From NCBI GenBank assembly GCA_019321725.1, contig CM033108.1, positions 14,588,060 through 14,652,059 of the forward strand: 64,000 nucleotides of DNA, in the 5' to 3' direction. How positions within the stretch are numbered: the stretch's first letter is position 1; each line of letters begins with the position of its first letter. A program made the position numbers and the translations under genes. The notes under the pieces were generated by a model that did no database searches, was not told the origin of the DNA, and worked only from the letters and a program-made list of their open reading frames with translations. Origin of the DNA: Paulownia fortunei. Its lineage: Eukaryota > Streptophyta > Magnoliopsida > Lamiales > Paulowniaceae. Below, piece after piece: positions 3,240 through 36,001 of this stretch.

Positions 3240-4100
3240 CAACCGGTATCTAATACTCAAGAAGTATTGTTAACTGACAAATTAACTTCAACAAAATATA
3301 TACCTGAACTCTTCAGACTTGCAAGATACTCCTTGTAATTCCTCTTCCAATGCCTTAGTTTGCCGCAGTAATGGCACTTGTTATTGGCTTGAGAAGAAAC
3401 TTTTTTGACACTGCCCTTAGCTTTTATCTTGTTGGGTTTAGAGGAACCCTTTCCTTTCTTCTTTCCTTTCTTGGGCCTTTTAGCATTTAATCTGAAAGAA
3501 GATCCAACAAGCAGAACCGGCTTATCCTTTTTCATGGTGGACTCAGCCGTCTTTAATATATTTACAAGCTCAGCGAGACTAGTCTTCATGTTGTGCATGT
3601 TAAAGTTGACAACAAAGGTGTCAAAAGATGGAGGCAGAGGCTGTAGTAGAGGTCTGTATAGAGTTCGTTCTCCATAACGACTTAAGGGACGCCAGTCTTT
3701 CAATGAGGGCTATCATCTTCAATCCATGATCATGGACTGAAGAGCCCTCGGTTATACAACATCTGAAAAGCTCTTTTGAGATCTGATATCTCATCTGTCG
3801 AGTTCTTTACTATACAACTCTTGTAGGTGAATGAGGATCCCATAAACAGTATCTTGATCCTCGTTCAGCCTTTGCAGTTCATTTGACATCGATGCCAACA
3901 TGTAGCATCGAGCCTACAGATTGTCATTGACATGACGTAAATAATCTGCATAAGCCTCTGAAGTAATATCCTCCGATGGAATTAAAGGAGGCACAGTGTC
4001 AAGGATATATACCTTCTTCTCCGACTAAAGAACTATCTTCAGGTTTCTTAACCAATCGACAAAGTTGTTCAAGGATTGTTGCAAGTGGATTCTTTGCCAT
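3240..4100 (-). pseudogene. copia gag with zinc-knuckle remnant
   Basis: A start codon lies at 4098-4100 (-) and reads MAKNPLATIL; a frame change follows, then FVDWLRNLKIVL, a recognisable copia capsid motif. Internal stops interrupt the capsid part. The C-terminal half is open at 3257-3703 (-). It has NMHNMKTSLAELVNILKTAE, a lysine-rich stretch (RPKKGKKKGKGSSKPNKIKA) and a nucleocapsid knuckle CHYCGKLRHWKRNY whose fourth ligand is Tyr instead of Cys. In the family this protein forms the particle shell and binds RNA. This copy is inactivated by stops and frameshifts. Confidence 0.88.
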
Positions 4101-18544: not shown

Positions 18545-18549
18545 CTCAT
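18545..18549. repeat. Target-site duplication, left (ctcat)
   Basis: Five bases directly before the TG start of the 5' LTR. The counterpart at 27301-27305 is ctcac, one mismatch. The pair supports a single integration event. Confidence 0.65.
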
Positions 18550-20159
18550 TGATAAATGCATACTTTGATATATTTTTGTATCAAATCCTTTATACTTTTC
18601 TTGCTTTATTCTTGTTAATATTATTATTTTATTAATATTTTGTGTTAGGGAATAAATGGAAGCATATTTCCAAACTTATGCAGTTTTTGTAATTTGAGCA
18701 TAACTTTATGATCAAAAGTCTTATGGACCTGAAGCTTGTTTCATTTGAAAGAAAAAGATAGAGGTACAATTTTTATGTTGGAAGCTCAGCCCAATTCAGT
18801 TTTGATGATAGTAGAAAATTTGTCCAAATAGTTACACAAAATGAATCACCAAAATTCGGATAAGAGTTCAGCCCAGTATTGACTTATTTCAGCAATTCGG
18901 TTATATATCTTGAGCCTAAATTTATTTTGGGCTGAAATTTGGATATGTTATACCCAAGAGTAAATAAACAAGTTTGCTAAAGACAAGATGGTGTGAAAAT
19001 ATGTCAAAATGGTAAAACCATAGGCTGCAAGTTGCTGCTGATGTTAAAGGGCGGCTCTTGGACATGACTTGATAATTTGACTATATCTCGTTCATTCGAC
19101 CACCAAATTTAACAAAAGATATATGAAAATATATCAGCGCTGAAATATATACAATTTTTATTCTTCACATATCTTCAAAATATGGTTGTATCTGATCGAA
19201 AAATATAATTTAATTCAATAGGTGAGAAATTTGTGTAACAACGTACCAACTCTTGGCAACTAGCATACCACTTGATTAACCCCTCCATTATTTGTTTGGC
19301 CTCTAGCTTACTCCAAGTACTATAAATAGGCCATGTATTAAACTTGTAAGAGGAGGGGGGTACAGGGTTTCTTTAGGCTAAGTTATCTAGTTTGTATATT
19401 TTTTAGTATTGTAAGTTTTCTAGTAGTAATAGAAATACATTCTCTAGTTTCTCTTATATTTTTAATCTTTGTTACTTTTATTATGTCTTTTTAAATTTCA
19501 TTTTGTTGAGGAAAAAGGGTGAGTCTCTTGATGGATGAAGAGAAATGGTTATAAGGGTAGAAATTGTTTAAGTATGTTGTATTATTATTTTTATTTTTGA
19601 TCAAAATCCTATTTGTTTTGTGGTGATTCTTAATTTATGTATCTCCAATGGCACAACAAATACTTAGGTTCATTTAGCTTATTGTACGGTTTTACCCTAC
19701 CGACTGCTAATGTAAAACCTTGATTTATTATTGACGAAGGTGTGCATAAATGCTTGATCTTATAAATAAGTATTGGCGTTAAGAGATAATTTGCAATAGT
19801 AAGACAATATCATGATTACCTTATTGAATGAGTTACTTGATAATATCTTCTCATTGGAACCTTCATTATGTATGGATTCTAATTGTGGTAATTAATAGAG
19901 GTAAAAAGAATAAATAACCATTTCTCTATCCAAAACTCAAGAGTGGATCCATAATCTTCAGTACTTTTATTACTTCAATTTTTCTTCAGTTACATCATAC
20001 ATTAATTGTTCATATATTTTGATTCACATAGACTCCATCTTTTTAGAAATATAAACTTGAATTCTTCAAACAACTTCCCTGTGGATCGACCTTGAACTCA
20101 CGAGAAATTTATTACTTACTACAACCTGCACTTAGGTTTGAAACCTTAAAGTTGTAGCA
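18550..20159 (+). repeat. 5' LTR (1610 bp)
   Basis: Starts TGATAAATGC and ends TTGTAGCA. It aligns along its length with 25690-27300. A TATA box 'tataaatagg' lies at 19321-19330, so the genomic transcript should start near 19350. Confidence 0.93.
19321..19330 (+). promoter_or_regulatory. TATA box in 5' LTR
   Basis: TATAAATAGG, conserved in the 3' LTR at 26462-26471. Expected Pol II promoter of the element. Confidence 0.65.
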
Positions 20160-20165
20160 AGTTTT

Positions 20166-20183
20166 TGGCGCCGTTGCTGGGGA
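20166..20183 (+). other. Primer-binding site, tRNA-Asp type
   Basis: TGGCGCCGTTGCTGGGGA begins six bases after the 5' LTR end. It complements the 3' end of plant tRNA-Asp (CCCCGGCAACGGCGCCA) with one mismatch, as is usual for Athila/Tat gypsy elements. Confidence 0.88.
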
Positions 20184-20480
20184 AGACAAGGTAAGTATTC
20201 AGGTTTGTTAATATTTTTTCTTTGTAAATATAGTTTGTTTATTTTCTTTATGGATATATGGTTATATAATATCGTAGTCATAATTCTTAACGTTTAGTAA
20301 GAAATAATTCCAAAACTTTGTTAAAAAGAAAAATAAAAAGGATATAAATAGATAAACTTAGTTATTTAGCCAGAATTTATTTGATCGGATCCAACTTGAG
20401 AACAACAATCTATAAGTTAGTGCCTTTATATTAGTATTTTTACATAAGCAACAAATACCACCAGCAGATTTGAGTGGGTA
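20184..20480 (+). other. Shortened leader; site of internal deletion
   Basis: Only about 300 bases separate the PBS from the end of RT, where a complete element would have gag, protease and RT. No coding signal is seen. The deletion joint lies here or just inside the following frame. Confidence 0.6.
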
Positions 20481-22334
20481 ATGAAATTGATTTATGAGTT
20501 AACTAGTATAAAAAAAACTATAAAACGTCTTATGGGGTTTGTTAAGCTTAAAAGCATGCTTACGTCTGCTTCAATCATACAACCTCCAGATTGGACTTTA
20601 CCTTTTGAAATAATGTGTGATGCTAGTGATTATGCAGTTGGAGCTGTCTTGGGACAAAGAAAGGATAAAAAACCATATGTTATTTACTATGCAAGTAAAA
20701 CTTTAAATGGTGTTCAATTGAATTATACAACAACTGAAAAAGAATTACTTGTTGTAGTTTTTGCATTGGATAAATTTCGATCTTATCTTGTTGGCTCACC
20801 AATTGTTGTTTTTAGTGATCATGCAGCTTTGAAATATCTTTTGTCAAAAAAAGATGCTAAACCAAGACTGATTAGGTGGATTCTCTTACTCCAGGAATTT
20901 AATATTACTATTCAAGATAAAAATGGAGTAGAGAATGTAGTGGCTGATCATTTGTCAAGACTTGTTTGTGATAACTCATTTCAAACCACACCTATTAATG
21001 ACATTTTCCCTGATGAACAACTATTTAATGTTTCTATTTTACCTTGGTTTGCTGACATTGTTAATTTTCTTGTGACAGGAAAGATGCTATCGCATTGGAA
21101 CTCTCAAGACAAAAAGAAGTTTTTGACTGAGGTTAAAATTTTTTATTGGGATGATCCATACCTATTCAAATATTGTCCGGATCAAATCTTTCAAAGATGT
21201 GTGCCTGACAATGAGATAGGTAATATTGCCAAATTTTGTCATTCAAAAGCATGTGGTGGTCATTTTTCTGTAAAGAAAACTACTGCAAAAATCTTGCAAT
21301 GTGGATTTTATTGGTCAACTCTTTTCAAAGATACTCATACTTTCTACAAAAGTTGTGAAAATTATCAAAAGTTAGGGTCCCTTTCAAAGAGAAATATGAT
21401 GCCCCTACACCCTATCTTAGTGATTGAAATCTTTGACTGTTGGGGTATTGATTTCATGGGGCCATTTCCATTATCATTTGGTTTTCTTTATATATTGATT
21501 GCCATATATTATGTTTCAAAATGGATCGAGGCAATTCCTTGTCAAAACAATGATCACAAAATAGTGATAAATTTTTTGAAAGAAAATATTTTAAGTCGAT
21601 TTGAAATTCCTAGATCTATTATCAGTGATGGGGGAAAATATTTTTGTAACAAAGTTTTCGGAACTTTAATGAAGAAATATGGAATCATACATAAAGTTGC
21701 AACCCTTTATCACCCTCAGACAAATGGACAAGTTGAACTTGCAAATAGGGAGATAAAACAAATTTTGGAGAAAACAGTTAATCCAAACCGTAAAGATTAG
21801 TATCTTAGACTTACCGATACACTTTGAGCATATAGAACTGCTTTCAAAATATCATTAGGCATGTCTTCTTATAGGATAGTTTATGAAAAACCTTGTCATT
21901 TACCTGTTGAACTTGAACATAAAGCTTATTGGGCAATCAAAATGTTTAACTTCAGCCTTGATGAAGGTTCAAAATTGCGTAAATTGCAAAACAATGAACT
22001 TAAAGAACTGAGAAATGATGCATATGAGAATTCTAAAATTTATAAAGCAAGAATTAAAGAATTTCATGATAATAAAATTTCAAAAAAAAATATTTGAGGT
22101 TGGTCAAAAGTTTTGCTTTATAATTCTCGATTGCATTTGTTTCCTGGAAAATTGAGATCAAGGTGGAGTGGTCCTTTTGTTGTAAAAAAAGTATATCCTT
22201 ATGGGGAAATTGACATTGAAAATCCTAGAAATGGTAACATATTTAAAGTAAATGGACAAACAGTTAAACCATTTCTAGAAAATCAATTTTCACAAGAGGA
22301 AATTCTTTTTCTTTCTAACCCTTGTTATGATTAG
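20481..22334 (+). pseudogene. Gypsy pol: RT C-terminus, RNase H, integrase
   Basis: The first frame (20481-21800) opens in the RT tail (MLTSASIIQPPDWTLPFEI). It continues with RNase H landmarks: MCDASDYAVGAVLGQ, YASKTLNGVQLNY.TTEKE, FSDHAALKYLL and VVADHLSRL. Integrase follows. Its zinc-binding region (CHSKACGGHFS and CENYQKLG) leads into a catalytic core with Asp in WGIDFMGPFP, Asp in IISDGG and Glu in NGQVELANRE. A TAG at 21798-21800 and a TGA near 21826 break the frame. The remainder reads through 21861-22097 and 22113-22334, ending in a chromodomain-free tail ([19 protein letters not shown]) typical of Athila/Tat integrase ends. Catalytic residues remain, but stops make it non-functional. 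Confidence 0.92.
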
Positions 22335-22433
22335 TGTTGTATATACTCATTTTTCTCTGACATTATTTTTTTTTCTTCTTCTTTTATTTTTTTTTCTTTC
22401 CCGATTAAATGGCGGATAACGGTACTCCGTGGC

Positions 22434-22441
22434 TATAAAAG
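22434..22441 (+). promoter_or_regulatory. Possible internal TATA box
   Basis: TATAAAAG lies 42 bases before the first ATG of the accessory ORF and 93 before its second ATG, in the non-coding gap after integrase. It could start a separate transcript for the downstream ORFs. Sequence match and spacing only. Confidence 0.35.
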
Positions 22442-22475
22442 TCGGACTTGTCAGTTTCCCAAACAACTGAAATCT

Positions 22476-23085
22476 TTGTACAAATTTTCTTTACTTTTCT
22501 CATTCTCTTTTCTTGTTCTTTTCAAAATGGGTGATATTTTTCTAACTCTCAAGAATCGATTTCCTTTTCTTCCTAAAAATGCAATTTTGAAAATTTATAA
22601 AATTAGGATTGAAAGATTGAGGATGCTTATGCACAAGAACATCCCGACGAACATACAATGGATAATTGAAGCAAAGGTAAGGGCAGATGAGTTTTCATAT
22701 GAGTTTCCAGATTTACTTATTAGATACATGTCTGGTTTTGGTAAAAGCACATATTCAAAAAAATGAAGGACGAAAAAAATGAAAGTTTATCATATTTGTG
22801 CTAGATGGACTTGCAACACAAAGTGTCGTTCTTTAGGAATGGTCTCTAAAAATCGAGAAAATAAACTTAAATTCATTATGGATGGACTGAGTAAGGAGTC
22901 TTTAGATCACATTATATTGACTCTTGAGACGCATTCATGTGGATTGGTACAACGTGCAATTCTTGATTTATGAGATTGTTTTCGAAATGAATATGAGTTT
23001 TACAGTCTTGGGAATCTGACATTAAAAGACCCTATTTGCCAGTTTATAAGAAAACTGGATGGGAAGTATATCCTTGACCCATAGA
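22476..23085 (+). pseudogene. Accessory ORF of unknown function in the gypsy element
   Basis: Two consecutive plus-strand frames (22476-22766 and 22779-22973), and a continuation to about 23085, read as one interrupted protein of roughly 200 residues. The first part may start at the ATG at 22476 or at 22527 (MGDIFLTLKNRFPFLPKNAI). It is rich in Lys, Arg and Ile with IERLRMLMHKN and WIIEAKVRADEFSYEFPDLL. The second part has KLKFIMDGLSKESLDHIILT and, after a TGA at 22971-22973, FYSLGNLTLKDPICQF. I recognise no domain. Position after integrase matches the extra (env-like) ORF of Athila elements, but no signal peptide or clear transmembrane segment supports an envelope role. It may be element-specific or a second captured host fragment. 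Confidence 0.55.
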
Positions 23086-23318
23086 GGGCGTTTAAGCCGT
23101 TACTGGACGTAAACCAGAGAAAGATGTGAGCCACAATCACAACTACATGTACATACACGTATTAGTAGGTAATTTTTAAATTTCGTATGTGTCCTTATTT
23201 TCAACATTTTTGACAAAAGAAAAAGACATGCAATAAATACATTCCCTGTTCACACCTCAATAAATATCACCGTACTCACTTTATTTTTGCACAACTTATT
23301 TTCAAAAAAGAAAAAAAA

Positions 23319-23960
23319 ATGGAAGTTTCTTCAACTCGCAAATTTAATTCCATTTGTATTTTTTGTGGATCCAATCTATGAAAAAATGGTGAGTTTATAG
23401 GGGTAGCCAATAACCTTAGTAGAACTTTAGCAGAAAGAAAAATTCATTTAGTGTATAGGGGAGGCAGTTTAGGGTTAATGGGGTGTTGTTATTTCTGCTT
23501 ATATAGGAGGTGTCAAAGTTTTGGGACTTATCCCAAAATCTTTAACAGTACAGAATATCACGAGTATGATCATTGGAGATAAGCTAAAAGTGTCACATAT
23601 TCAGGACAGAATGCCTAACATGTTAAACAATGCGGATGCATTCATTATTCTACCTGGCGGTTTTGGTATACTAGAAGAATTATTCCAAATTGTCTCTTGG
23701 GCATAACTCAACATTTACCAAAAACCTATAGGTATTCTTAATGTTTATGGTTTTTATGATGGTTTGCTATCTTTTGTAGATCATGATGTGAAAAAAGGTT
23801 TTATTTCAACTTCTGCGAGAAGAATCATCATTTCTACTCCGACTCCTGACCAGCTGATTGATCAACTTCTAGCATATGTGCCAAAACCTGATCCAACCTT
23901 AGCCAATGTGGATTGGTCCAATAGGAACAATGGTAGAAAATACAAATTGAAATTGACTCT
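23319..23960 (+). pseudogene. LOG-like: Intronless LOG (cytokinin riboside 5'-monophosphate phosphoribohydrolase) copy
   Basis: LOG enzymes release active cytokinin bases from their ribotides. The copy starts at ATG 23319 (MEVSSTRKFNSICIFCGSN; family ICVFCGS). It continues with LSRTLAERKIHLVYRGGSLG (family LVYGGGS-G, here G to R) and LMG. After a frameshift near 23480-23486 it reads YIGGVKVLGLIPKSL, then DRMPNMLNNADAFI (family RK..M...DAFI, here K to M). The signature PGGFGILEE is at 23653-23679 (family PGG.GT.EE, here T to I), followed by PIGILNVYGFYDGLLSFVD and GFISTSARRIIISTPTPDQL. In-frame stops are TGA 23379-23381 and TAA 23704-23706. Plant LOG genes normally have several introns; none is present here. 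It is in the element's sense orientation between integrase and the 3' LTR. Clearly a pseudogene. Confidence 0.9.
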
Positions 23961-25650
23961 CAGTCTGAGATACTTATTGTTAATAATTTTATCTAATAGT
24001 ATGTGTTTTTTTTGTTTCAACTTTGTTAGCCGCATTTCAGGTGATATCTTTCAAACTCTACTTTTCTATCTATTTTTGGCATTGGGGACAATGTCTCGAT
24101 TAGGGTGGGGGGAGGGATAATTGATATCATGACTTGTATATTCAATGTGTGTTTTTCTGGTATTTAAAAAAATTAAGAAAAATAAATAAAAAATATAAAT
24201 CAAGCGTGTTTTTTTATGGGTCCGTTGAAAGCATGAAAAAAAGTGGCTGAGTAAAGGGTAATTATAACACTCTTGAGACGTATTCCTATTTTTTGCATAA
24301 CATGGCAGGTTTGTATAGTTTTTAACAAATGTTTGTGAATTATCAATTATTTTTTTTGAGTCGTATAGGTTTTTCCAACTTCAATGATTAAAATTAAGCA
24401 TGAATAATATGGTTTGATTGATGATGGGTGTTGTTTTGGACTTTGATGTTGTTATTTGGTTAATATATTTTTGCGATAATTATACTCAAATTTTATTTTG
24501 CACAAATAATTATGTTATTTAGTGTGAAGACAATCATGTCAAAATAGATAGTTCTTATGCCCTTACTCTAATCATCACTTGAATCTTCAACATGTAGGGG
24601 TTGAGTATTAGAACTTTTACTTTTGGTCTATCGAGGCGAACGATTGATAGTGCACCACTAGAAAAATGATTAAGACATTAGGCTTTCTAGCACCATTGCC
24701 AAATCAGCTTGTTCCCTATATGATGTTTCAAGAAAACATCCCCCTAGTAAACCACTTTGAGCCTTACAATAAATAAATATTTTTTTTTGTAACCATATCT
24801 TTTTACCTAGCCTAAATACACTATTATCCAATCCTTATTCTAAAAATGATTGGAGTTTAAAAGACATTCAATTGACAGCTTGAACTTACAAAAGAAATTC
24901 AGGTTGGAATAGAAGATAAGTGTGGGGGAGTTTCTTTAAAAAAAAAAACAATAATAATAAAAAAAGGTTGCGAAGTGCTACAAGTTGCAACTAAAAATGA
25001 GATGTTACAAGATGAATAAGAGGGGTCCAATTCAATAACAATAGACCCCAGTGTGAAATTTGTGGAGTTGGAGAATTCTTCATCAATAAATTTTATGTCT
25101 ATAATTTCATGAAATTTTTAGAACCTAGTTGCATCATATCCTTTTATTTCTTAGCTACATCACCACCATTTGGCTCCATTACAATCTTTGTTGAAGACCT
25201 TTTGATTTCGTGTGGTGCCTTCAGTGTAGTGGAGATTTGCACCAAAGGAAGAGCCTATGATGTTTAACTTTTTTGTTAGAGATTGGGTGATGGTTTTTGT
25301 AAGGTTTTATGAGAATTCACTTATTTGAAACATGCATAGTTTCATCACTATTGACATTAACTGTCCACACACACACTTGAGTATGCTTATTGTGGAAATA
25401 TATTGATTTTTGAATGACTAAGAGTTAAACTCAACACTTGTTTGATTTTATTTCCATATTACTTTGTTGCTTCATGAGAATAAAAGTTGGAAGATAGTTA
25501 TTATAGGTGTTTGTAGGCATCACTGCTGGAAACCTTTATGAGACTATAACTCGTCCTCTATGGGCCACCTAGGGGTTTAAAGACTTGTTCCATATGCTAA
25601 ATGCAATGGTGATTTTCTACGAAAGTGGATTAGTTTATGTTTATTTTAAG
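23961..25650 (+). other. 3' non-coding part of the gypsy element
   Basis: The frame after the LOG similarity continues to a TAA at 24118-24120 through hydrophobic, low-complexity residues and is probably not coding. The motif 'ttggggacaatgtctcgatt' (about 24082) resembles a conserved non-coding block of Athila/Tat elements. A polypurine-like 'agtgtgggggag' at about 24919-24930 duplicates the core of the true tract at 25676-25689. The rest shows no gene. Confidence 0.6.
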
Positions 25651-25689: not shown

Positions 25690-27300
25690 TGATAAGTGCA
25701 TATTTTGATATATTTTTGTATCAAATCCTTTATACTTTTCTTGTTTTATTCTTGTTAATATTATTGTTTTATTAATGTTTTGTGTTAGGGAATAAATGGA
25801 AGCATGTTTCCAAACTTGTGCAATTTTTGTAATCTGAGCATAACTTCATGATCAAAAGCCCTGTGGACCTTAAACTTATTTCATTTGAAAGTCAAGAGAT
25901 AGAGGTACAACTTTTATGTTGGAAGCTCAGCCCAATTCAGTCTTGATGATAGTATAAAATTCGTCCAAGTAGTTACATAAAATGGATCACCAAAATTTGG
26001 ATCAGAGTTTAGCCCAGTATTGACTTATTTCAGCAATTCGGTTATATATCTTGAGCCCAAATTTATTTTGGGTTAAAATTTGGATATGTTATACCCAAGA
26101 GGTAAATAAATAAGTTTTCTAAAGATAAGATGGGTGAAAATATGCCAAAATGGTAAAACCATAGGCTGCAAATTGCTGCTAATGTTAAAGGGCAGCTTTT
26201 GGATATAACTCGGTAATTTGACTATATCTCCTTCATCTGACCACCAAATTTGACAAAAGATATATGAAAATATATCAGAACTGAAAGATCTACAATTTTT
26301 ATTCTTCACGTATCTTCAAAATCTGGCTGTATCTAATCGAAATATGTAATTCAATTCAGTGGGTGAGAAATTTGTGTAACAACTTACCAACTCTTGGCAA
26401 CTAGCATACCACTTGATTAACCCCTCCATTATTTGTTTGGCCTCTAGCTTACTCTAAGTACTATAAATAGGCCATGTATTAAGCTTGTAAGAGGAGGGGG
26501 GTAGAGGTTTTCTTTAGGCTAAGTTATCTAGTTTGTATGTTTTTTAGTATTGTAAGTTTTCTAGTAGTAATAGAAATGCATTCTCTAGTTTCTCTTATAT
26601 TTTTAATCTTTGTTACTTTTATTATGTCTTTCTAAATTTTATTTTGTTGAGGAAAAAGGGTGAATCTCTTGATGGAGGAAGAGAAATGGTTATAAGGGTA
26701 GAAATTGTTTAAGTATGTTGTATTATTATTTTTATTTTTGATCTCAACCCTACTTGTTTTGTAGTGATTCTTGATTTATGCATCTCCAATGGCACAACAA
26801 ATACTTGGGTTCATTTAACTTATTGTATAGTTTTACCCCATCGACTGCTAATGTGAAATATTGATTTGTTGTTGACGAAGGTGTGCATAAATGCTTGATC
26901 CCATAAATAAGTATTGGCGTTAAGAGATAATTTGCAATAGTAAGACAATATCATGATTAGCTTATTGCATGATTTACTTGATAATATCTTCCCATTGGAA
27001 CCTTCATTATGTATAGATTCCAATTATGGCAATTAATAGAGGTAAAAAGAATAAATAACCATTTCTCTATCCAAAACTCACGAGTGGATCCTTAAGCCTC
27101 TATACTTTTATTACTTTAGTTTTTCTTTAGTTACATCATACATTAATTGTTCATATATTTTGATTCACATAGACTCTATCTTTTTAGAAATATAAAGTTG
27201 AATTCTTCAAACAATTTCCCTGTGGATCGACCTCGGACTTACGAGAAATTTATTACTTACTACAACTTGTACTTGGGTTTGCAACCTTAAAGTTGTAGAA
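25690..27300 (+). repeat. 3' LTR (1611 bp)
   Basis: Starts TGATAAGTGC and ends TTGTAGAA, where the final CA has mutated to AA. It matches 18550-20159 throughout. Minus-strand frames at 26073-26309 and 26820-27023 fall inside the LTR and are not genes. Confidence 0.93.
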
Positions 27301-27305
27301 CTCAC
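27301..27305. repeat. Target-site duplication, right (ctcac)
   Basis: Matches ctcat at 18545-18549 at four of five bases, placed exactly at the 3' LTR end. Confidence 0.65.
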
Positions 27306-35239: not shown

Positions 35240-36001
35240 CTTATAGAAGTATGTGCTTGACTTATTGAAAGAAATTGGGAAGTTAGCTTGTAAACCTACT
35301 AACACGCCAAATGGATTCAATCATAAGGTTGTACAAAACACGAATGATGCTATTATTGATCGGGAAACTATCAGAGATTAGTTGGTCGATTAATTTATCT
35401 ATCCCACACAAGCCCTAATATTGCATATGTTGTCACTGTAGTTAGTTAGTTCATGCGCAATCCTAAAGAAGTCCATCTTCACGTGGTGTACTGAATATTG
35501 CACTATCTCAAAGGAGCACCTACGAAAGGGATTTTGTTCAGAAAGGGGACCGGTTTGACACTTAAAGCCTATACTGATGTTGATTATGTCGGTTCAATGG
35601 TTGATAGACGATCAACATCAGGCTACTGCACATTTTCAGGTGGAAACCTAGTTATATGGATGAGTAAAGCACATATTAATATTGCAAGATCAAGTGTTGA
35701 AGCTGAGTTTAGATCAATAGCTCTTGGAATATGTGAACTACTATGGCTGAAGATAATTCTTGAAGTTTTGATGAATAAATGGGAGGCACCTAGGAGACTA
35801 TACAGAAATGATAAGTCAACTATTAATATTACACATAATATTGTACAACCTGACCGCACAAAATATGTTGTAGACAGACATTTCATCAAGGAGAAGTTGG
35901 ACACTAGTCTCATTTCCACACCATATGTTTCCATAAATGGAAAAGTTACAGATGTTTTAACCAAAGGATTGAGTAATGTCGTGTTTCTTTACGATAATTA
36001 G
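35240..36001 (+). pseudogene. copia RT C-terminus and RNase H fragment
   Basis: The plus strand reads RKYVLDLLKEIGKLACKPTN from about 35245 (copia RT thumb), then broken frames with NPKEVHLHVVYRILHYLKGA. An open RNase H part at 35498-36001 has LKAYTDVDYVGSMVDRRSTS, GYCTFSGGNLVIWMSKAH and ARSSVEAEFRSIA, and ends with KYVVDRHFIKEKLD and a TAG/TAA region at 35999-36003. The family motifs YTDADWAG, SGYC.F.G.NL..W.SKKQ and SSAEAEYRA are all recognisable. No gag or integrase lies upstream, so this is a 5'-truncated copy, unrelated in position and strand to the copia element at 238-4100. Confidence 0.92.

Follow-up and report, generated by a model that had tools for sequence, protein, structure and literature searches.

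The window, a stretch of 64,000 nucleotides of Paulownia fortunei DNA, contains a dead, internally deleted member of a Ty3/gypsy retrotransposon family with an intronless LOG gene inside it. The reading that we favor, and consider likely, is that this family has recently been active at high copy number in P. fortunei and that its LOG is a long-held accessory gene kept by selection, of which the window holds one decayed copy. The parts of the window element are as follows.

18545..18549, no strand: 5' flanking 5-mer CTCAT, candidate target-site duplication, 4/5 match to 27301-27305
18550..20159, + strand: 5' LTR, 1610 bp, TG...CA, from LTR comparison
20166..20183, + strand: primer binding site, 17/18 to the complement of the plant tRNA-Asp 3' end
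20448..21797, + strand: RNase H and integrase remnant (PF17917, 1.4e-35; PF00665, 9.7e-12)
21828..22330, + strand: integrase C-terminal remnant, by homology to the open frame of the relative L001
22331..22526, + strand: spacer between pol and NABP, containing a block conserved in L001
22527..23084, + strand: broken accessory frame (NABP), C4 zinc-finger, Carla_C4/Viral_NABP type, stop codon included, from protein relatives
23082..23155, + strand: non-coding block past the NABP stop, with three stem-loops predicted both here and in L001
23319..~23966, + strand: intronless LOG frame, broken by one frameshift, two stops and loss of the terminal stop
24035..24160, + strand: conserved block 3' of LOG, common to the LOG-less relative L001
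25672..25689, + strand: polypurine tract, by eye
25690..27300, + strand: 3' LTR, from LTR comparison
27301..27305, no strand: 3' flanking 5-mer CTCAC, 4/5 match to CTCAT

The primer binding site was named from what we take to be the 3'-end sequence of plant tRNA-Asp. The LTRs of the window copy differ at 119 of 1609 positions (K2P 0.079), and LOG lies 4.8 kb from the start of the 5' LTR, compared with 8.0-9.2 kb in six copies that have two LTRs. The window copy showed no frame for gag, protease or reverse transcriptase; all three, together with RNase H and integrase, were found in pieces of the upstream frames of two other copies. LTRs, primer binding site, polypurine tract, the order gag-protease-reverse transcriptase-RNase H-integrase and a target duplication place the family in Ty3/gypsy, with the window copy itself showing only RNase H and integrase. 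Membership in the Athila or Tat lineages is a possibility; the pieces of upstream frames searched gave no match to a chromodomain or a second RNase H. To our knowledge, non-chromovirus OTA elements carry no chromodomain. Extra ORFs, a long non-coding region and a non-Met tRNA primer binding site are described for the OTA superclade (Athila, Tat), with an aRH in Tat only, in the available part of a published account (PMC6317226). By eye, the window has two further retroelement-like frames: that at 3257-3709 (- strand) includes a CCHC-like zinc knuckle, and that at 35495-36001 (+ strand) resembles the RNase H end of copia elements.

The LOG frame runs in frame 1 from 23319, shifts by one base near 23484 and continues in the next frame to its end. 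Translated through its breaks, each written as X, it matches Arabidopsis At2g37210 (PDB 2a33; E=1.2e-52, residues 6-201, 43% identity) and NCBIfam TIGR00730 (5.9e-41, 140.1 bits against a cut-off of 96.35), and it exceeds the curated score of Pfam PF03641 (4.1e-32), all well outside what chance would produce. The NCBI equivalog model CtkRMPhLog scored 94.2 bits, below its cut-off of 300, in a library made for prokaryote annotation. These matches bear out the initial annotation, which had read a LOG-family protein from end to end, in sense orientation and free of introns, between the integrase remnant and the 3' LTR, in an element whose flanks nearly match; the flanks are CTCAT and CTCAC, identical at four of five bases. 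Both the catalytic Arg and the catalytic Glu are present in the window copy. It reads PGGFGILEE, with Ile in place of Thr; among the 34 copies of this genome read with a full-length LOG frame, PGGFGTLEE is exact in 26 and altered in 8. At 16 of 213 comparable positions the window copy has a residue absent from 12 near relatives, in addition to its two stops; neutrality over the age of its LTRs predicts 16.9 missense changes and 0.63 stops. This LOG was probably intact when the element inserted and decayed afterwards. L040 and L055 also have the Ile in the PGGFGT motif, so the sixteen odd residues are not all private.

Searches of the P. fortunei genome (509 Mb, 1247 contigs) showed how far the window copy is from being alone. 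With the 642-bp LOG segment as query there were 2310 first-look candidates, and the best 40, which were scored, comprise the window and 39 other matches, at 94-95% identity, all spanning the query from base 1-5 to base 642. A canonical LOG protein gave at least 150 scored matches at 42-52% identity; each of the best 150 aligns without interruption over 178 or more of the 218 residues, and 99 of them, as counted from the table, have no in-frame stop. Both lists are ranked by similarity, and 24 loci were read from the protein matches absent from the DNA list. Spacer, LOG and 3' block occur at the same joints in all 30 loci compared (window included, 1.5 kb on each side), and NABP plus integrase end are matched in 29 of the 30, the integrase end in L038 being partial. 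At 51 of 54 own-genome loci the stretch upstream of LOG contains NABP. Of the 30 loci, which were ranked by how closely their DNA resembles that of the broken window copy, 12 have a full LOG frame of 217 codons; adding the further 24 makes 34/54, a figure that leans toward intact copies because the added loci were ranked by protein score. The NABP frame has its normal length in 2/30 loci and is longer in two more.

Several of these insertions are young. Both LTRs are full in six of ten copies examined, and the six pairs have K2P distances of 0.0037, 0.0044, 0.0050, 0.0144, 0.0157 and 0.0641, five of them below 0.016; a common flanking 5-mer was found in five of the six. At a substitution rate of 1.3e-8 per site and year, five of the six datable elements inserted within about 0.6 million years. 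The initial annotation had proposed a check for other insertions that share the LOG segment at the same joints; every locus compared does so, and some have a full-length LOG frame.

A single processed pseudogene of a host LOG, nested in this one element, would also be intronless and broken, and an A-rich stretch seen by eye just before the start codon could be read in the same way. Against this, the joints are shared by the 29 loci besides the window, no poly-A tail was seen by eye after the LOG segment, and the proteins closest to the window LOG, among the matches listed, are other element-type copies and not host LOGs. The initial annotation had named an outcome that would count against its own proposal: a nested retropseudogene in a single copy, missing from all other family members. 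At least 39 further places and the common joints exclude it, and we give a nested pseudogene next to no credence.

The genome also holds remains of earlier LOG copies. A search with the pattern PGGYGT, aimed at the exons of native LOG genes, matched three old, broken element-type copies instead. L102, L103 and L104 are older broken LOG copies with 61-81% identity, where aligned, to the P. fortunei LOG protein P0001, and no NABP match was found within the stretch examined around them; being older and broken, they indicate that the family has older layers. Native LOG genes were approached with a C-terminal query, which matched 10 places in the genome; on four contigs two such matches lie 265-276 bp apart on one strand, an intron-like arrangement in which the query ranges overlap.

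A relative that lacks LOG came from an alignment of NABP searched against prokaryote genomes, which returned a single locus, L001, with plant-like content. L001 is a 3330-bp contig (DAIEQH010000041.1) filed in a Candidatus Nomurabacteria metagenome-assembled genome, where from its sequence it is probably contamination. From RNase H to NABP its layout matches that of the window (blastn, 75% over L001 1-2419), and the block downstream of LOG is also present, scoring 68 where 1000 shuffles gave no more than 44. The NABP stop and this block are 188 bp apart in L001 and 953 bp apart in the window, and no LOG remnant was found between them in L001; therefore, LOG and its flanks form a discrete insert of ~0.76 kb relative to L001. 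Such an element can thus be without LOG, and the difference would fit either a gain or a loss of the gene. No member of the element family turned up in IMG/VR, for which the queries were P0001, two exact DNA patterns and the alignments of NABP and LOG; one of these searches returned 26 loci at 25-40% identity.

The NABP frame, broken in the window, had gone unnoticed in the initial annotation. It has 344 relatives in the protein collection at E<=0.001, and intact ones are mostly about 182 amino acids long (180-186 in 89 of the best 120 of 344) and combine a C4 zinc finger with a basic stretch. Six relatives were scored with Pfam: all pass the cut-off of Carla_C4, the putative nucleic-acid-binding protein of carlaviruses, and four pass that of Viral_NABP; the own-genome copy in L064 also reaches the Carla_C4 cut-off. 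The window copy, which has lost one Cys, has no Pfam match, and the structure model of NABP is poor (pLDDT 59.7). Among the matches listed, relatives are named from Xanthoceras, Populus, Acer, Rhamnella and Orobanche.

Non-coding blocks on both sides of NABP are conserved between the window element and L001. The block past the NABP stop (23082-23155; L001 2345-2419) is little changed though the elements differ by 25%, and the middle one of its three predicted stem-loops is kept through a two-sided change (CTGG/CCAG versus CTAG/CTAG); it may act in the RNA as a signal by which the next gene is read. Before NABP, positions 22395-22480 correspond to L001 1670-1745 (TGGCGGATAACGGTACTCCGTG and TCAGTTTCCCAAA.AACTGAAA), and an 18-base part of this block was not found in IMG/VR. 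An internal promoter ahead of NABP was considered and dropped, as the TATA-like stretch of the window is not conserved in L001.

Relatives of the element LOG extend to other plants. The protein collection holds 780, and the best 120 include 41 from Reevesia, 30 from Orobanche, 10 from Xanthoceras, five from Rehmannia, four each from Paulownia and Pterospermum and two from Diplodiscus; 84 of these 120 have 215-218 amino acids. Across Lamiales and Malvaceae the proteins have ~50-65% identity to the window copy. Their copy number, length and ends suggest that the LOG proteins of other genera also sit in elements, as is already in print for Citrus and Populus.

We built a tree from 74 rows chosen by hand for spread: the window copy, 45 of the 120 relatives, a bacterial LOG, one LOG8 and 26 proteins from the canonical LOG3/LOG1-type set of 120. 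A branch with support 98/86 has all 46 rows of element type (Lamiales, Malvaceae and Xanthoceras) on one side, in a tree where neither root nor bootstrap had settled. Paulownia groups with the window copy and Rehmannia joins Orobanche (supports 99/98 and 100/94). Orobanche and Rehmannia belong to Orobanchaceae and Paulownia to Paulowniaceae, both in Lamiales. Since Paulownia lies outside Rehmannia plus Orobanche, the order of the copies agrees with that of their hosts, a pattern that fits long vertical carriage in Lamiales. By this tree, the capture took place before the Paulownia, Rehmannia and Orobanche copies separated, and probably before Lamiales and Malvaceae did. The initial annotation had proposed that this element captured a LOG; an intronless LOG is indeed a component of the family, but by the tree its capture was not private to this element. 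Template switching on a spliced mRNA may have been the route, as had been suggested.

Several independent captures of host LOGs by related elements could look like a single clan through shared selection or through sampling, and the canonical rows, which cover LOG3/LOG1 plus one LOG8, together with the root and bootstrap just described, leave some room for this. Nevertheless, the element type arises by one change in 98% of 200 bootstrap trees, the Lamiales copies follow their hosts, and 107 of 115 relatives have in common the replacement of an active-site Lys by a hydrophobic residue (Ile, Met or Leu). We therefore regard independent captures as distinctly unlikely.

Whether LOG has been of use to the element bears on an alternative in which it is a passenger, captured once and amplified with an element that gained nothing from it. 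LOG variants seen in single copies have a ratio of 1.4-1.6, neutral or above, as dead copies would be expected to show. Variants common to two or three copies gave 1.70, 0.92 and 1.38 in three sets; for those common to four or more, the values were 0.60, 0.56 (p=0.077) and 0.50 (p=0.075), in weak tests. Among 36 open copies, pairwise dN/dS was 0.83 (dS<0.02), 0.48, 0.39 and 0.35 (dS>0.08) from the closest to the most distant pairs, which are not independent of one another. With broken copies included, the corresponding LOG ratios were 1.93, 0.74, 0.46 and 0.55, those of NABP in the same bins 0.49, 0.56, 0.66 and 0.61, and those of the integrase end, framed on L001, 2.02, 0.76, 0.72 and 0.84; this last series replaced an earlier integrase control (1.73 for variants in four or more copies) whose frame was unsure. 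Compared with the three old broken copies, LOG has ratios of 0.65, 0.63 and 0.42, the last of these against L104 (dS 0.39, dN 0.165), where 37.8 changes at 124 silent sites and 62.3 at 421 other sites lie about 3.5 standard errors apart. Between the window and L001 the ratio is 0.30 for NABP (dS 0.85, dN 0.25) and 0.08 for the RNase H end plus integrase, with dS near saturation.

These values favor, though not conclusively, constraint on LOG in the lineages that transposed. The neutral singletons, the 18 of 30 similarity-ranked loci that lack a full frame and the existence of the LOG-less L001 all suit a passenger. On the other side stand the dN/dS of 0.35-0.39 for older open pairs, the low ratio even against the dead L104, and the full frames, catalytic residues and, often, C-terminal tail kept across Lamiales and Malvaceae despite their divergence. 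On balance we think it unlikely that LOG is a mere passenger.

The model of P0001 (pLDDT 85) superimposes on 2a33 with a TM score of 0.94, and the predicted fold of the element protein is that of LOG. Residues were tabulated for 115 relatives, with five of the 120 left out as fused, extended or irregular (P0013, P0014, P0040, P0097 and P0115), and compared with 120 canonical proteins of LOG3/LOG1 type, other LOG groups being represented only by one LOG8. Of the two catalytic residues of LOG named in the available part of a published account (PMC4979012), the Arg is kept in 104 of 115 relatives and the Glu in 109. Next to this Arg, the adenine-binding Lys (Lys100 of CgLOG) is found in all 120 canonical proteins and in only 6/115 relatives. 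A basic stretch with LxLxL ends 62 of the 115 relatives, some of which are cut short, whereas LxLxL occurs in the last 24 residues of 0/120 canonical LOG3/LOG1-type proteins. The tail is changed in Orobanche and lacks LxLxL in Xanthoceras, and in the P0001 model residues 202-212 fall under pLDDT 50. LxLxL is given as a consensus of the EAR repression motif in the consulted part of one source (PMC9956375).

The fold might have been kept for another role, in a protein located in the nucleus that either consumes some other nucleotide, N6-modified or signalling, or recruits a co-repressor through LxLxL. The lost Lys, the tail that canonical LOG3/LOG1-type proteins lack and the low model confidence in its region all point this way. 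Short motifs arise easily, however, the tail varies among genera as noted, and the canonical sample consists of LOG3/LOG1 proteins and one LOG8; we consider such a role doubtful, if not strongly so.

Cytokinin is the known product of plant LOGs. A further report, as far as its text was available, agrees (PMC11593424). Because the adenine pocket is altered, with its Lys kept in so few relatives, cytokinin is uncertain as the substrate of the element enzyme. Fuller members of the family consist of LTR, gag-pol, a carlavirus-type NABP, LOG, a 3' non-coding region and LTR. Under the favored reading, that of a long-held and selected accessory gene, LOG would have been acquired long ago without introns and carried since, with selection on transposing copies keeping the gene while each inserted copy decays. 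Element RNA driven by the LTR, or a shorter RNA derived from it, would yield a LOG-fold enzyme acting on an N6-modified AMP to release its base, chiefly active cytokinin split from the riboside monophosphate. Free cytokinin, or another N6-modified adenine, would thereby rise in cells where the element is active. A dividing or meristem-like state of the expressing cell might then favor transposition and transmission, to the benefit of the element.

A bolder version treats the two accessory genes as one virus-like module. A zinc-finger protein akin to pathogenicity proteins of plant viruses and a neofunctionalised LOG, stripped of its adenine-binding Lys and endowed with a basic LxLxL tail, would together act on the host cell through hormone or nucleotide signalling, silencing or co-repressor recruitment, and so favor the element, much as orchid elements acquired an m6A demethylase. 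One mandarivirus cysteine-rich protein suppresses local silencing, according to the part of the report available (PMC12172455), and a possible role of NABP in silencing or transcription is suggested only by analogy with such viral proteins. We judge the module improbable.

A tool of the hormone system may be travelling on a selfish element, and why a plant retrotransposon would keep a hormone enzyme is directly testable, with intact proteins in public annotation and several young copies in one tree genome. Element copies may swell the numbers of LOG genes counted in Paulownia, Rehmannia, Orobanche, Reevesia and others; some of them (P0015, P0016 and P0082) are already annotated as cytokinin-activating enzymes. 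The pairing of LOG with a carlavirus-type protein may also be a tie between LTR elements and plant RNA viruses.

LOG capture by gypsy elements is already in print, contrary to the initial annotation, which knew of no such capture by a plant retroelement. The YgdH domain of LOG proteins is reported in gypsy consensuses of Citrus sinensis and C. clementina and, without a count filter, of Populus trichocarpa, in a paper that cites Steinbauerova et al. 2011 (PMC9289625). The Paulownia family thus shares a LOG-type domain with these elements; the account of them, two sentences in the available text, gives no layout, zinc-finger neighbor, ages, catalytic-residue or selection data and does not name Lamiales or Malvaceae for the domain (PMC9289625). 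Among the matches listed in the open-access literature searched we found neither the NABP-LOG layout, the copy number and youth of the Paulownia family, a test for selection, the C-terminal tail or the change in the active site, nor any title joining a carlavirus-type protein with LTR elements.

Other known systems resemble the Paulownia family in part. Gypsy elements of Phalaenopsis have an accessory ORF for an AlkB m6A demethylase, kept over rounds of replication and, like LOG, concerned with N6-adenine chemistry, but this is a different enzyme, and its activity has been shown in vitro, according to the same partly available source (PMC9289625). Maize Bs1 likewise holds host gene sequence inside an LTR element, although, in the portions of two accounts available, it comprises segments of three genes, none full length, compared with one full-length gene in many copies in Paulownia (PMC13317346, PMC7264820). 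Gene-transducing elements of the Bs1 type are described there as having the captured sequence in one or few copies (PMC7264820), and the Paulownia LOG was scored at no fewer than 40 places by DNA and 150 by protein. The cysteine-rich proteins of mandariviruses and the nucleic-acid-binding proteins of carlaviruses have a zinc finger like that of NABP, whose relatives reach the Carla_C4 and Viral_NABP cut-offs (PMC12172455, in the part available); the element protein differs in having 182 amino acids and in residing within a retrotransposon. Finally, the element LOG has in common with At2g37210 and At5g11950 (PDB 2a33 and 1ydh) the fold, the PGGxGTxxE motif and the catalytic Arg and Glu, and is set apart from these Arabidopsis LOG-type proteins by its lack of introns, by Ile, Met or Leu in place of Lys beside the catalytic Arg and, in many copies, by its basic LxLxL tail.
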